From the IMG/VR virus record IMGVR_UViG_3300027140_000003, positions 37,864 through 101,863 of that record: a stretch of 64,000 bases of DNA; one strand, given 5' to 3'. Position numbers and translations under genes: made by a program. The stretch comes from a virus. The notes beneath the pieces are model-generated. The model searched no databases and was not told the DNA's origin. It saw nothing but the letters and a program-made list of their open reading frames with translations. Position 1 is the first letter of the stretch; each line of letters starts with the position of its first letter. This document shows positions 17,697-45,940 of the stretch, piece by piece.

Positions 17697-17771
17697 TGGC
17701 GACTCGTGGGAGAATCGAACTCCCATGATCGGATAGACAATCCGACGTAATGACCATTATACGAACGAGCC
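17697..17771 (-). tRNA. tRNA-Asp(GUC)
   Basis: Acceptor GGCTCGT/ACGAGTC, anticodon stem TCGGA/TCCGA with loop TTGTCTA, CCA encoded. Confidence 0.94.
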
Positions 17772-17779
17772 AAATAATT

Positions 17780-17867
17780 TGGTGGGTGCTCTCCGATTCG
17801 AACAGAGAAGGCACTAAGACAAGAGATTTACAGTCTCCCCCCGATACCATTACGGGACTAAGCACCC
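17780..17867 (-). tRNA. tRNA-Tyr(GUA)
   Basis: Class II tRNA with variable arm after anticodon stem GGAGA/TCTCT, loop CTGTAAA; acceptor GGGTGCT/AGCACCC; CCA encoded. Confidence 0.94.
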
Positions 17868-18223
17868 ATGATATTAGTTTTGCTGACGCACTATTTGCTA
17901 TGCTCAACGGAATTAGCTGCAGCATTTACCGTTTATGTACATAGTTACTCAGGCATGATCAAGCCCATGGCTTACATCAGCAAAACTAATACCACATTTA
18001 ATTGCACTGGGATGTTTGGCAACAACTACCACTCGGTAGCTAACCACGTCATCGTCTGACGATTGGTTCCCATCCACATTACGTTCCAACTAACTCCAGC
18101 GTGACCACCGTATCCGTCCATAGACTTCGTTTCCATCTTTCCTGATACATGACGCACCCATCTCCGTCGAGACAGCCAATGCTCATGCATCCTACTGGTT
18201 TGGTAACCCAATGCAATTAAATC
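17868..18223 (-). ncRNA. Large structured non-coding spacer II in the tRNA array (about 355 nt)
   Basis: No credible reading frame. Two domains are closed by long helices: ATTAGTTTTGCTGA (about 17874-17887) pairs perfectly with TCAGCAAAACTAAT (about 17977-17990), and TAATTGCACTGGG (about 17999-18011) pairs with CCCAATGCAATTA (about 18207-18219) with one wobble. Inside the second domain are CTACC/GGTAG, AACCA/TGGTT enclosing CGTC/GACG, and GGATG/CATCC. Long-range closing helices around a branched interior are typical of large ornate RNAs such as GOLLD and ROOL, which occur next to phage tRNAs. Confidence 0.6.
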
Positions 18224-18298
18224 TGGTACACGATAGGAGAATCGAACTCCTCTTCCTGCCGTGAAAGGGCAGTGTCCTAACCGATAGACGAATCGTGC
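18224..18298 (-). tRNA. tRNA-Glu(UUC)
   Basis: Anticodon stem CTGCC/GGCAG, loop CTTTCAC; acceptor GCACGAT/ATCGTGT; CCA encoded. Directly follows a promoter. Confidence 0.94.
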
Positions 18299-18317
18299 AT
18301 TTCAATCAAGAACATTA

Positions 18318-23551: not shown

Positions 23552-23854
23552 TTATGCAGCGAAGGAAGAACCGCATCCGCAAGTTTGCTTTGCGTTGGGA
23601 TTTGTGATTTTGAACGCTTGTTCAAATGCTTTGGTTTCATAATCAACTGTTGCACCAGTCAAATATTGCATGCTCATATAGTCTACGACTACATTGTCTA
23701 TAAGAAAATCATCTTCTTCTTTGTCTGAGAATTCAAACGTGTATGAATATCCAGAACAACCACCACCTTTAACAGCGATGCGAAGATAACTTTCTTGATT
23801 TTCAGCAAGTAAGTCTGTGATTTTGTTTATTGCGTTTTCTGTAACTGTAATCAT
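23552..23854 (-). CDS. iscA: A-type iron-sulfur carrier protein (IscA/ErpA)
   Basis: A 100-residue A-type carrier. Conserved cysteines are in GGGCSGYSY (about residues 32-40) and the C-terminal QTCGCGSSF (about 91-99). NPNAKQTCGCGSSF is nearly invariant in the family. It receives clusters from IscU and passes them to apoproteins. ATGA overlap with IscU. Phage targets could include its own RNR-related electron donors or host enzymes; this is inference. Confidence 0.92.
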   Translation of the reverse strand: MITVTENAINKITDLLAENQESYLRIAVKGGGCSGYSYTFEFSDKEEDDFLIDNVVVDYMSMQYLTGATVDYETKAFEQAFKITNPNAKQTCGCGSSFAA

Positions 23855-24237
23855 TTACATGAACACTTTAGTTCGTAGTCTTTAACTGCTGCTTTAATTG
23901 CATCTTCTGCTAAAATCGAGCAGTGAATTTTAACAGGAGGTAGTGCAAGTTCGTCAGCTATCTGGCTATTTTTAATTTGGGATGCATCTTTGATAGACAT
24001 ACCCTTAACCATTTCTGTTACCAGCGATGACGAAGCAATTGCACTTCCGCAACCATATGTTTTAAACTTGGCATCAGTAATAATACCATTATCGTCAACC
24101 TTAATTTGGAGTTTCATTACGTCACCGCATGCTGGTGCACCAACCATTCCAGTTCCAACTGTTGGGTCGTTTTTATCCAAAGAACCCACGTTGCGTGGAT
24201 TCTCGTAGTGATCGATAACTTTGTTTGAATATGCCAT
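23851..24237 (-). CDS. iscU: Iron-sulfur cluster scaffold IscU
   Basis: A 128-residue scaffold with the three Cys ligands in GAPACGDVM (about 33-41), KTYGCGSAIASSS (about 59-71) and LPPVKIHCS (about 99-107), and the HYENPRNVG N-terminus. All catalytic residues are present, including the LPPVK chaperone-binding site. No IscS, HscA/B or ferredoxin gene is near, so host partners would be used. TATAAATA stands six bases before the ATG. Confidence 0.95.
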   Translation of the reverse strand: MAYSNKVIDHYENPRNVGSLDKNDPTVGTGMVGAPACGDVMKLQIKVDDNGIITDAKFKTYGCGSAIASSSLVTEMVKGMSIKDASQIKNSQIADELALPPVKIHCSILAEDAIKAAVKDYELKCSCK

Positions 24238-44102: not shown

Positions 44103-44251
44103 TATTCTTCATCGTCTAGATCCTCTTCTTCGTAGATGTCAGCAGAACAAACTGGGCAATATACCACATCTTCTGTTGAATGGTCATCTCCTTTGAGAAC
44201 GATCTTTCCTCGTGCTCCACATGATTCACATTCAAAATATTTAGTCGACAT
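44102..44251 (-). CDS. Zinc-ribbon protein (49 aa)
   Basis: CESCGARGKIVLKGDD and YCPVCSADIYEEED form a CxxC...CxxC ribbon. Acidic tail. Overlaps both neighbours (TAATG and 11 bp). Conserved in T4-like aquatic phages. Confidence 0.75.
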   Translation of the reverse strand: MSTKYFECESCGARGKIVLKGDDHSTEDVVYCPVCSADIYEEEDLDDEE

Positions 44252-44948
44252 TTTTTACCCTTGCTAATCCTAATGTATTAAAAATCCTATACCACATCCA
44301 ACCGATATCAAACTCCAATGATTTTCTACTTAATTTTGGGTTTGCTGGCTCGCCATGGTGATTGTTATGCAGTTCTTCACCACCAATAATAATCCCCCAT
44401 GGAACTATATTAGTTGATTTATCCTTACTATCATAGTTTCTATAACCATAATAGTGCCCCAAACCATTTATAACACCTGCAGCCCAGAATGGAATCCAGA
44501 TCATCTGAACACCCCAAACCCAGAGACCCCACCAGCCAAAGAATAAACAATCAAGAATTAACATTACCACAATTCCAGCATATGGAAATTTAGAGTAGAC
44601 ATTTTTCTCGACCCAATCGTCTGGCGTACCGACACCATATTTAGCAATCATTTCTTTGTCTTTGGAGGATTCAACATAACAGAAAACACCAGCGAATAAA
44701 ATATACCAAATACCGAAAATATGTGGGGTATGTGGGTCACCTTCTTTGTCAGAGTTCTGATGGTGTTTGCGATGTATGGCAACCCATTCTTTAGTTACCA
44801 TACCAGTTGTCAACCACAACCAGAATCTCATAAAGTGGGAAAGACCTGGATGAAAGTCAATACCTCTGTGAGTTTGCCCTCGATGTAAAAACAAAGTAAC
44901 ACAAATGATGGTGATGTGGGTCATCACCAATAGGTACAAGAATGCCAT
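44241..44948 (-). CDS. Fatty acid desaturase (acyl-lipid/acyl-CoA type)
   Basis: Start at 44948 (MAFLYLLVMTHITIICV). Three histidine boxes: HRGQTHRG (first), HRKHHQN (second) and ELHNNHHGEP (third). Four membrane helices. This is the pattern of a delta-9-like desaturase, here 235 residues long. It could change host membrane fluidity. TGATG overlap with NrdB. Confidence 0.88.
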   Translation of the reverse strand: MAFLYLLVMTHITIICVTLFLHRGQTHRGIDFHPGLSHFMRFWLWLTTGMVTKEWVAIHRKHHQNSDKEGDPHTPHIFGIWYILFAGVFCYVESSKDKEMIAKYGVGTPDDWVEKNVYSKFPYAGIVVMLILDCLFFGWWGLWVWGVQMIWIPFWAAGVINGLGHYYGYRNYDSKDKSTNIVPWGIIIGGEELHNNHHGEPANPKLSRKSLEFDIGWMWYRIFNTLGLARVKNVD

Positions 44949-45940
44949 CAAGCAGCCTTGCCCCAAACATCATCCCAGCTGCCAGACAATGCACCTTTGG
45001 CATAGTCAGTAACACGATTCTCAAAGAAGTTTCCGTGCACTGGTGCGTTAATCATTTCTTCTACCCATGGCAAAGGATTCTTCTTAACTTTGAAAATACC
45101 TTTCATACCTAGCGAGATAAGGCGACGATCTGCGATGTAACGGATGTACTGTTTAACATCTTCAGCTTTTAGATCACGCATCTCGCCATTCTGGTAGCAG
45201 AGATCGATAAACTTATCTTCCAATGCAACCATCTTTTCAGCGATAGTATAAATCTTAGATTTAAGTTCATCATTCCAGATCTCTGGGTTCTCCTTGATAA
45301 ACTCTTTAAATAATTTGATCATATTCTCAGCATGCATCGTTTCATCAACAATACTCCAAGTAACGATCTGACCCATACCCTTCATCAAACCATGGCGAGG
45401 GAAGTTCAACAACATAATGAATGAAGAGAACAACTGCATCCCTTCAGTGAATGCAGAGAACACCGCAATGTGTGTTGCTGTTGATGCCAATGTACCATTC
45501 TTCGAAGATAACTCAAGAACATAATCGTGCTTGTCACGCATCTCTTGATACTCAAGGAACTCATTGTAAGTTGATTCTGGCATACCCAGTGTTTCAATCA
45601 AGTGCGAGTACGCAGCAATATGCAGTGCTTCACGTGCAGCGAAACCAGAAAGCATCATGCGAATCTCTGGTTGTGGGAAGTATGGTAGATAGTTCTTAAC
45701 GTAACCACCTGCCACATCGATGTCACCTTGTGTGAAAAAACGAAAGATGTTTGTCAAGAATGTTTTTTCTTCTTGCGTTAAACTTTTCTTCCATTGCTTA
45801 ACGTCTTCTGCCATTGGAACTTCAGTGTGTAACCAATGTGCTTGTTCATGTTTTAGCCACGCTTCATATGCCCATGGATAATTGAAAGGTTTGAAATAAT
45901 TCCTTTCATCAGTCATTTTACTCGTTTTATTCTTTACCAT
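44948..45940 (-). CDS. nrdB: Ribonucleotide reductase class I small subunit
   Basis: A 330-residue R2 protein with carboxylate/His ligands: AAREALHIAAYSHL (ExxH), FTEGMQLF and DETMHAENM (ExxH). Tyr within LHIAAYSHLIETL suits a tyrosyl radical site. Ends in SWDDVWGKAA, without the typical acidic FDDDF tail. GAGGAATAAG precedes the ATG. Confidence 0.93.
   Translation of the reverse strand: MVKNKTSKMTDERNYFKPFNYPWAYEAWLKHEQAHWLHTEVPMAEDVKQWKKSLTQEEKTFLTNIFRFFTQGDIDVAGGYVKNYLPYFPQPEIRMMLSGFAAREALHIAAYSHLIETLGMPESTYNEFLEYQEMRDKHDYVLELSSKNGTLASTATHIAVFSAFTEGMQLFSSFIMLLNFPRHGLMKGMGQIVTWSIVDETMHAENMIKLFKEFIKENPEIWNDELKSKIYTIAEKMVALEDKFIDLCYQNGEMRDLKAEDVKQYIRYIADRRLISLGMKGIFKVKKNPLPWVEEMINAPVHGNFFENRVTDYAKGALSGSWDDVWGKAA

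Follow-up and report, generated by a model that had tools for sequence, protein, structure and literature searches.

D2, a small RNA family of phage tRNA arrays with a palindromic apical loop that suggests self-pairing

Two structured RNAs, designated D1 and D2, lie in tandem in the tRNA array of a virus from the IMG/VR collection. The novel feature of D2 is the loop at the tip of its P4 helix, which is self-complementary in every copy that could be parsed and suggests, as far as loop sequences can, an RNA that works as a pair. D2 is probably a small stable non-coding RNA derived from a tRNA precursor, folded as a three-way junction and homodimerizing through a kissing loop at P4. A few giant self-assembling RNAs, obscure in purpose, are known from the tRNA arrays of phages. 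If the proposed reading is true, D2 would be a very small case (120 nt) of a self-associating phage RNA, with a conserved core and a simple architecture that is easy to handle in vitro, and it would become a small, tractable problem to ask why RNAs of this kind are encoded next to phage tRNAs.

The locus and its coding strand

The stretch of DNA analysed (hereafter the window; 64,000 nt) is part of a virus record of 101,863 bases. Replication genes of phage type, including those for a primase, a ribonucleotide reductase and a thymidylate synthase, are present in this virus. Auxiliary genes for iron-sulphur assembly (Fe-S_biosyn and NifU_N) and a fatty acid desaturase were also noted in the window (23552-24237 and 44241-44966). 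ARAGORN identifies 27 tRNA genes in the window, every one on the minus strand. D1 and D2 occupy that same strand between a tRNA-Glu(ttc) gene (18224..18298, minus strand; ARAGORN, with an Rfam tRNA match of 54.6 bits) and a tRNA-Tyr(gta) gene (about 17780..17866, minus strand), and the sequence places the start of D1 directly after the encoded CCA end of tRNA-Glu. The tRNA-Tyr(gta) gene at 17780-17866 is missed by both ARAGORN and Rfam cmscan and was recognized by eye, with an apparent 8-bp acceptor stem; in L003, a near relative, ARAGORN reports a tRNA-Tyr in the aligned place. A SpeD gene adjoins the D1/D2 locus in the window, and SpeD of L003 is 99% identical to it.

Both inverted repeats of the original prediction are found where it had put them, ATTAGTTTTGCTGA (17873-17886) facing TCAGCAAAACTAAT (17977-17990) and TAATTGCACTGGG (17999-18011) facing CCCAATGCAATTA (18207-18219). 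On the plus strand the second repeat is interrupted by a single C-A mismatch; the minus strand has G-U at this position, and only there is the pairing complete. No strand had been named in the prediction; the minus strand is indicated by the 27 ARAGORN tRNAs and by an excess of G-U pairs, with 66 G-U cells against 19 A-C cells in the helices of D2 homologues read on the minus strand. The minus-strand fold has a z-score of -6.18 (none of 100 shuffles as good), and the plus-strand fold is weaker (z -3.43). D1 and D2 are almost certainly RNAs made from the strand of the tRNAs.

A structured RNA with a pair of closing helices, located among phage tRNAs and outside the known families, had been predicted, and this description is borne out: covariation is present in the homologues and a full match to an Rfam family is absent. 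The assumption of one RNA of 355 nt holds for the structured nature of the region and fails for its unity. Two families are encoded on the minus strand, and they do not form one RNA because 86 of the 118 D2 matches listed occur without a recognized D1; the term bipartite, used in the prediction, thus turns out to describe two separate RNAs. As for the predicted absence of coding potential, short open frames overlap the locus mechanically, and the homologues change in the manner of an RNA.

At gathering score, Rfam reports only tRNAs in the whole window, and neither ROOL nor GOLLD. At E up to 10, the interval 17770-18310 gives only tRNA and a match to mir-19 (16.9 bits, plus strand), which was dismissed as a mere reflection of the inverted repeat. 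No match covers D1 or D2 in a search of six relatives at E up to 0.5, which gave tRNAs, sub-threshold matches overlapping tRNAs or close to them, and two tmRNA matches elsewhere, likewise below threshold. These two lie near tRNA arrays at L186:144-235 (30 bits) and L160:3323-3382 (21 bits), the gathering score being 47.

Structure of D2

D2 (123 nt; 17871..17993, minus strand) is a three-way junction with a covarying closing helix, as defined by covariance model R1, alignment A1 and pair counts. Model R1 matches the D2 of the window over its full length (1-126 of 126) with 128.4 bits. The closing helix P1, assigned by sequence and covariation, is formed by a 5' strand AUUAGUUUUGCUGA (17977..17990) and a 3' strand UCAGCAAAACUAAU (17873..17886), and comprises 18-22 pairs in 97 of the 118 D2 matches listed. 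Inside it, and on the same minus strand, are the conserved core UGUAAGC (17970..17976), the first four bases of which can extend P1; the P2 hairpin with its loop palindrome UGAUCA (17956..17961); the conserved core UAACU between P2 and P3 (17943..17947); the apical loop palindrome of P4, GCUGCAGC (17916..17923), proposed to be a self-kissing loop; and the conserved core GCAAAUAGUGC (17888..17898), which precedes the 3' strand of P1.

Alignment A1 contains 72 members, retained after near-identical sequences had been thinned from a set of 84 distinct ones. Its structure of P1, P2, P3 and P4 has 30 pairs, with 94.7% of cells paired and both-sided changes in 24 of the pairs. Double-change cells number 312, against 75 after shuffling, and the covariation score of 0.459 compares with 0.146 for shuffled and at most 0.089 for slid controls; D2 thus has the covariation, above both kinds of control, of a structured RNA. 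An extra U facing an extra A is present, the two together, in 37 of the 72 rows. RNAalifold, run unaided, recovers P1, P2 and P3 but not P4; 22 of its 28 pairs are changed on both sides. Single-sequence folds of L115 and L128 do not reproduce the consensus inner arms.

Distribution and genomic context of D2

A pattern for the closing helix (ATTAGTTTTGCTGA, 75-105 nt, TCAGCAAAACTAAT) found 32 stretches of viral contigs in IMG/VR. These have similar interiors and the same core, including UAACU and a nearly identical UGUAAGC, having been found through P1 alone; the first base of the core is C instead of U in L113. A pattern for the core alone found at least 119 stretches, and one for the 5' half found 66, including nine new loci. 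Eight of the nine are readable to the 3' end and all eight carry GCAAAUAGU, the ninth (L237) being cut off; the GCAAAUAGUGC core is not imposed by the 5'-half pattern. With relaxed patterns, the family reached over 120 loci, nearly all in tRNA arrays and on the tRNA strand. The core pattern included UGUAAGC, UAACU and GCAAAYAGUGC, and their invariance in A1 is therefore partly due to selection. The sets found by the closing helix only or by the 5' half only are less biased in this respect, and neither P1 nor the P4 palindrome was part of the core-alone and 5'-half patterns. The covariance model of A1 recovers 94 of 94 loci and 26 of 26 among L176-L201; since most of these had been found by pattern, the recovery is a check rather than independent evidence.

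Contigs carrying D2 are up to 525 kb long. A search of 39 chosen whole records with the D2 model gave a match in 34, and the five without a match (L003, L052, L047, L057 and L075) all came from the SpeD search. A single credible copy is present in 33 of the matching records; the exception is the 525-kb record, with two copies (L088 and L100, on one contig of 524,565 bases), each in its own tRNA array and with a different palindrome (GTGGCCAC and CCAGCTGG). Such a difference is as expected if the copies should not cross-pair, in what is one case only. A second copy suggested in record G002 (27 bits) lies inside a long open frame and was attributed to chance. In L003, the slot between tRNA-Glu and tRNA-Tyr holds a different structured RNA (L003:4660-4820; 161 nt, 18-bp closing helix, z -4.89) that contains GCAAAUAGGC. 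It was rejected as a member of D2, as the D2 model gives no match, and is considered a separate RNA.

Among named phages and cellular genomes, the searches were negative. The only match of the whole RNA to 50,697 phage records by blastn was 32 nt long (E 0.3), and five other D2 members gave short matches to named phages at E 0.3 or worse, or none; two short matches in named phages were inspected and dropped. No cultured phage with D2 was found in the blastn searches made, nor was any match obtained in a plasmid search with L150. The genome collection gave 21 pattern matches, only one of which (L205, E 0.015) falls under E 1 with the D2 model; L205 was rejected as chance, as its 8 kb are without a tRNA and the stretch looks protein-coding by eye. 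In a search limited to open-access literature and judged by titles and the starts of abstracts, no paper on such an RNA was recognized.

tRNA genes are found near D2 in 116 of the 119 loci listed, and in all 116 the nearest one is on the strand of the RNA; the flanking DNA examined for L164, L196 and L201 contains none. Neighbours were counted among tRNAs within 1500 nt, with L001 and L002 (the window's own kind) excluded and L107, from the same contig as L002, retained. Over the 119 D2 matches listed, the nearest upstream tRNA is tRNA-Glu(ttc) in 65 and tRNA-Arg(tct) in 17, and the nearest downstream tRNA is tRNA-Lys in 32, tRNA-Glu in 20, tRNA-Asp in 17 and tRNA-Tyr in 14. In many loci, the encoded CCA of tRNA-Glu lies 14-15 nt upstream of UGUAAGC, so that P1 begins there at the tRNA end; tRNA maturation alone could thus free D2.

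Self-complementarity of the P4 loop

The P4 tip contains a perfect palindrome of at least 6 nt in all 72 members of A1. Counted as distinct segments, 46 of 46 have the palindrome, against 8.1 expected and a maximum of 16 in 500 shuffles. In a wider set, 128 of 130 loci were parsed (the exceptions being L113, in which one core base differs, and L237, which is cut off), and a palindrome of 6-10 nt is present in all 128, in 23 different sequences; the window's own genome and loci nearly identical to one another are counted in this set, which reduces to 48 distinct segments. The segments share descent, and the shuffle counts consequently overstate their independence, so that a safer figure is that of the 11 distinct inner hexamers in the 72-member set (the inner tetramers are of eight kinds). 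A control segment in the same arm has a palindrome of at least 6 nt in 17 of 52 distinct cases. The palindrome background in the D2 arm is not negligible, and the 100% of the P4 loop is far above it.

The central four bases of the loop cannot pair within one loop, and the palindromy kept there hence points to a second molecule. A cryo-EM study (PMC12286853) uses the same argument, that of a switching palindrome, for contacts between loops in OLE and GOLLD. The predicted energy of the self-duplex averages -11.1 kcal/mol, compared with -3.0 for unlike palindromes, and -5 kcal/mol is reached by 22 of the 23 self pairs and, among unlike pairs, by 51 of 253; by this calculation, different palindromes would not be fully exclusive of each other. 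D2 shows what is expected in sequence of a self-kissing dimer, an apical palindrome that is kept while its sequence changes, and self-pairing through P4 is considered quite likely.

The P2 loop is weaker in this regard. It has a palindrome of at least 4 nt in 68 of the 72 members of A1 and lacks one in four. Among 25 distinct P2 segments, a palindrome of at least 4 nt occurs in 21 (10.1 expected) and one of at least 6 nt in 11 (2.2 expected), and the P2 of L234, L235 and L239 has a GCAA loop instead. A second self-contact through P2 is thus possible and would not be general. Complementarity between P2 and P4 has a mean longest match of 2.68, against 2.75 for shuffled partners, and reaches 6 or more in none of 68 members.

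Comparison with known RNAs

ROOL, a structured RNA of phages and prophages often situated near tRNA islands, is a homo-oligomer held by kissing loops between copies (PMC12286853). D2 resembles it in its phage tRNA context and in a putative self-association by kissing loops, suggested for D2 by the loop sequence. The solved example of ROOL has 659 nt and multiple pseudoknots, whereas D2 has about 120 nt and one three-way junction. The same source describes GOLLD as a phage RNA, often near tRNA islands, with a symmetric kissing loop backed by a switching palindrome (PMC12286853); many of its members exceed 800 nt, unlike D2. The property shared by ROOL and GOLLD of being a phage RNA near tRNA genes is seen in D2 at the 116 of 119 listed loci given above. 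OLE is a dimer in which the inner tetranucleotide of the symmetric loop switches between palindromes (PMC12286853), but is a large bacterial RNA with protein partners. Neither D1 nor D2 gives an Rfam match to ROOL, GOLLD or OLE (window at gathering score; 17770-18310 at E up to 10). The likeness to GOLLD and ROOL that had been suggested therefore extends to context and probable self-association, and not to sequence or Rfam membership.

A further parallel is the pRNA of phi29, a functional phage RNA of about 120 nt that has a closing helix and a three-way junction as well as two loops by which copies pair with one another. The two loops of pRNA are unlike and pair with each other, while P2 and P4 of D2 are not mutually complementary and are each self-complementary. 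A pRNA-like pairing of P2 with P4 was rejected, as the complementarity is no better than with shuffled partners. pRNA is among the Rfam families, and D2 gave no match to it in the window at gathering score or in 17770-18310 at E up to 10.

Species 2 RNA of phage T4 (rnaD) is a stable RNA of 119 nt that, like D2, is small and lies inside the tRNA cluster of a phage; its function is given as unknown in PMC9697503. Homology between the two was rejected, as the D2 model has no match over rnaD even with filters off. They have the words GUAAG, CUGAGUAA and AGCAGAAACGGC in common; eight relatives of rnaD do not keep GAGUAA and keep a different conserved hairpin. The stable T4 RNAs rnaC and rnaD (L202:909-1172), which have been known for a long time, have no Rfam match at E up to 1, and rnaD-like sequence was seen in 705 phage records with a query that included some flanking bases.

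Proposed mechanism and alternative explanations

D2 would be made as part of the phage tRNA precursor. Its 5' end would be freed by 3' maturation of the preceding tRNA or by a cut between D1 and D2, and its 3' end by 5' maturation of the next tRNA, a route suggested because spacers are nearly absent. Comparison of homologues shows that the RNA folds into P1, the hairpin P2 and the two-part arm P3/P4 around the conserved core; as the covariation suggests, two copies would join by pairing their palindromic P4 loops. The P2 loop may add a second contact, leading to larger even-numbered assemblies. The weakest step is the last, in which the dimer would present the conserved core twice, its most likely partner being a component of the translation or RNA-processing machinery served by the tRNA array; such a partner is suggested by location alone and is a tentative proposal that we hold to be rather doubtful. 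A bolder version would make D2 a self-assembling tile, in which P4-P4 and P2-P2 contacts produce an even-numbered ring or chain and the diversity of palindromes acts as a self-recognition code for pairing mainly with the own kind in co-infection. This version appears unlikely; if true, it would make D2, at 120 nt, a minimal equivalent of the cages of ROOL and GOLLD.

The position of D1 and D2 between tRNAs, with almost no spacer, would also suit cis-acting processing spacers that recruit RNase III or space the tRNAs and have no life after cutting, and the long, regular P1 helix would be apt for this purpose. Such a helix, however, needs neither a conserved unpaired core nor a palindrome that changes in sequence and is nevertheless kept in all 128 parsed copies, and many tRNA pairs in the same arrays are a few bases apart without any such element; this explanation is judged improbable. 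Still less probable is that the P4 palindrome is a protein contact, for example of a dimeric protein on a two-fold symmetric loop, rather than a site of RNA-RNA pairing. Dimeric proteins classically bind sites with two-fold symmetry, and UAA-like triplets stand on both sides of the palindrome in many members, but a protein site would be expected to be conserved in sequence, and with 11 central hexamers it is only self-complementarity that is kept.

An element acting as DNA only, such as a cruciform, a recombination or attC-like site or a mobile inverted repeat, is very improbable, and the least probable of these explanations. It would be favoured by the inverted repeats and short palindromes, which are features typical of DNA sites, and by the different RNA that occupies the slot in L003. 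Against this, the orientation is fixed with that of the tRNAs in all loci that have them, the G-U excess is confined to one strand, the internal hairpins covary, and records rarely carry more than one copy (33 of the 34 that match have a single credible one).

D1 and other stretches preceding D2

By sequence comparison, D1 (228 nt; 17996..18223, minus strand) is a second family, located directly upstream of D2 in some members; in the proposed scheme it would be a separate structured RNA that some phages place directly before D2. Its closing helix pairs 18207-18222 with 17996-18011 (minus strand), and its fold has a z-score of -4.06. Homologues upstream of D2 were found by BLAST and a signature search, with D1 upstream in 32 of the 118 D2 matches listed and within 6 nt of the D2 stretch in 29. 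Alignment A2 consists of 24 D1 sequences taken from 25 non-redundant signature matches, L142 having been left out by eye because it runs into an apparent tRNA and a reading frame. The A2 fold has 17 pairs, 13 of them changed on both sides, a count from a consensus fold only, without shuffled or slid controls. Conserved elements of D1 include a GGU that ends the closing helix, CC..UAGG, GUAAUG and hairpin loops with GACG or GCCG. Two separate D1 hairpins in A2 often end in GACG loops, and a repeated loop of this kind could be a docking site.

In L155, L123, L136, L116 and L186, D2 is preceded by a third recurrent RNA-like stretch in place of D1, in which the words CCGGUUAC, GUGGCUAUGGCACCG, GCAGACAACAUAGCAGCGU and GGACAGGGUAACAACUC are common to several loci.
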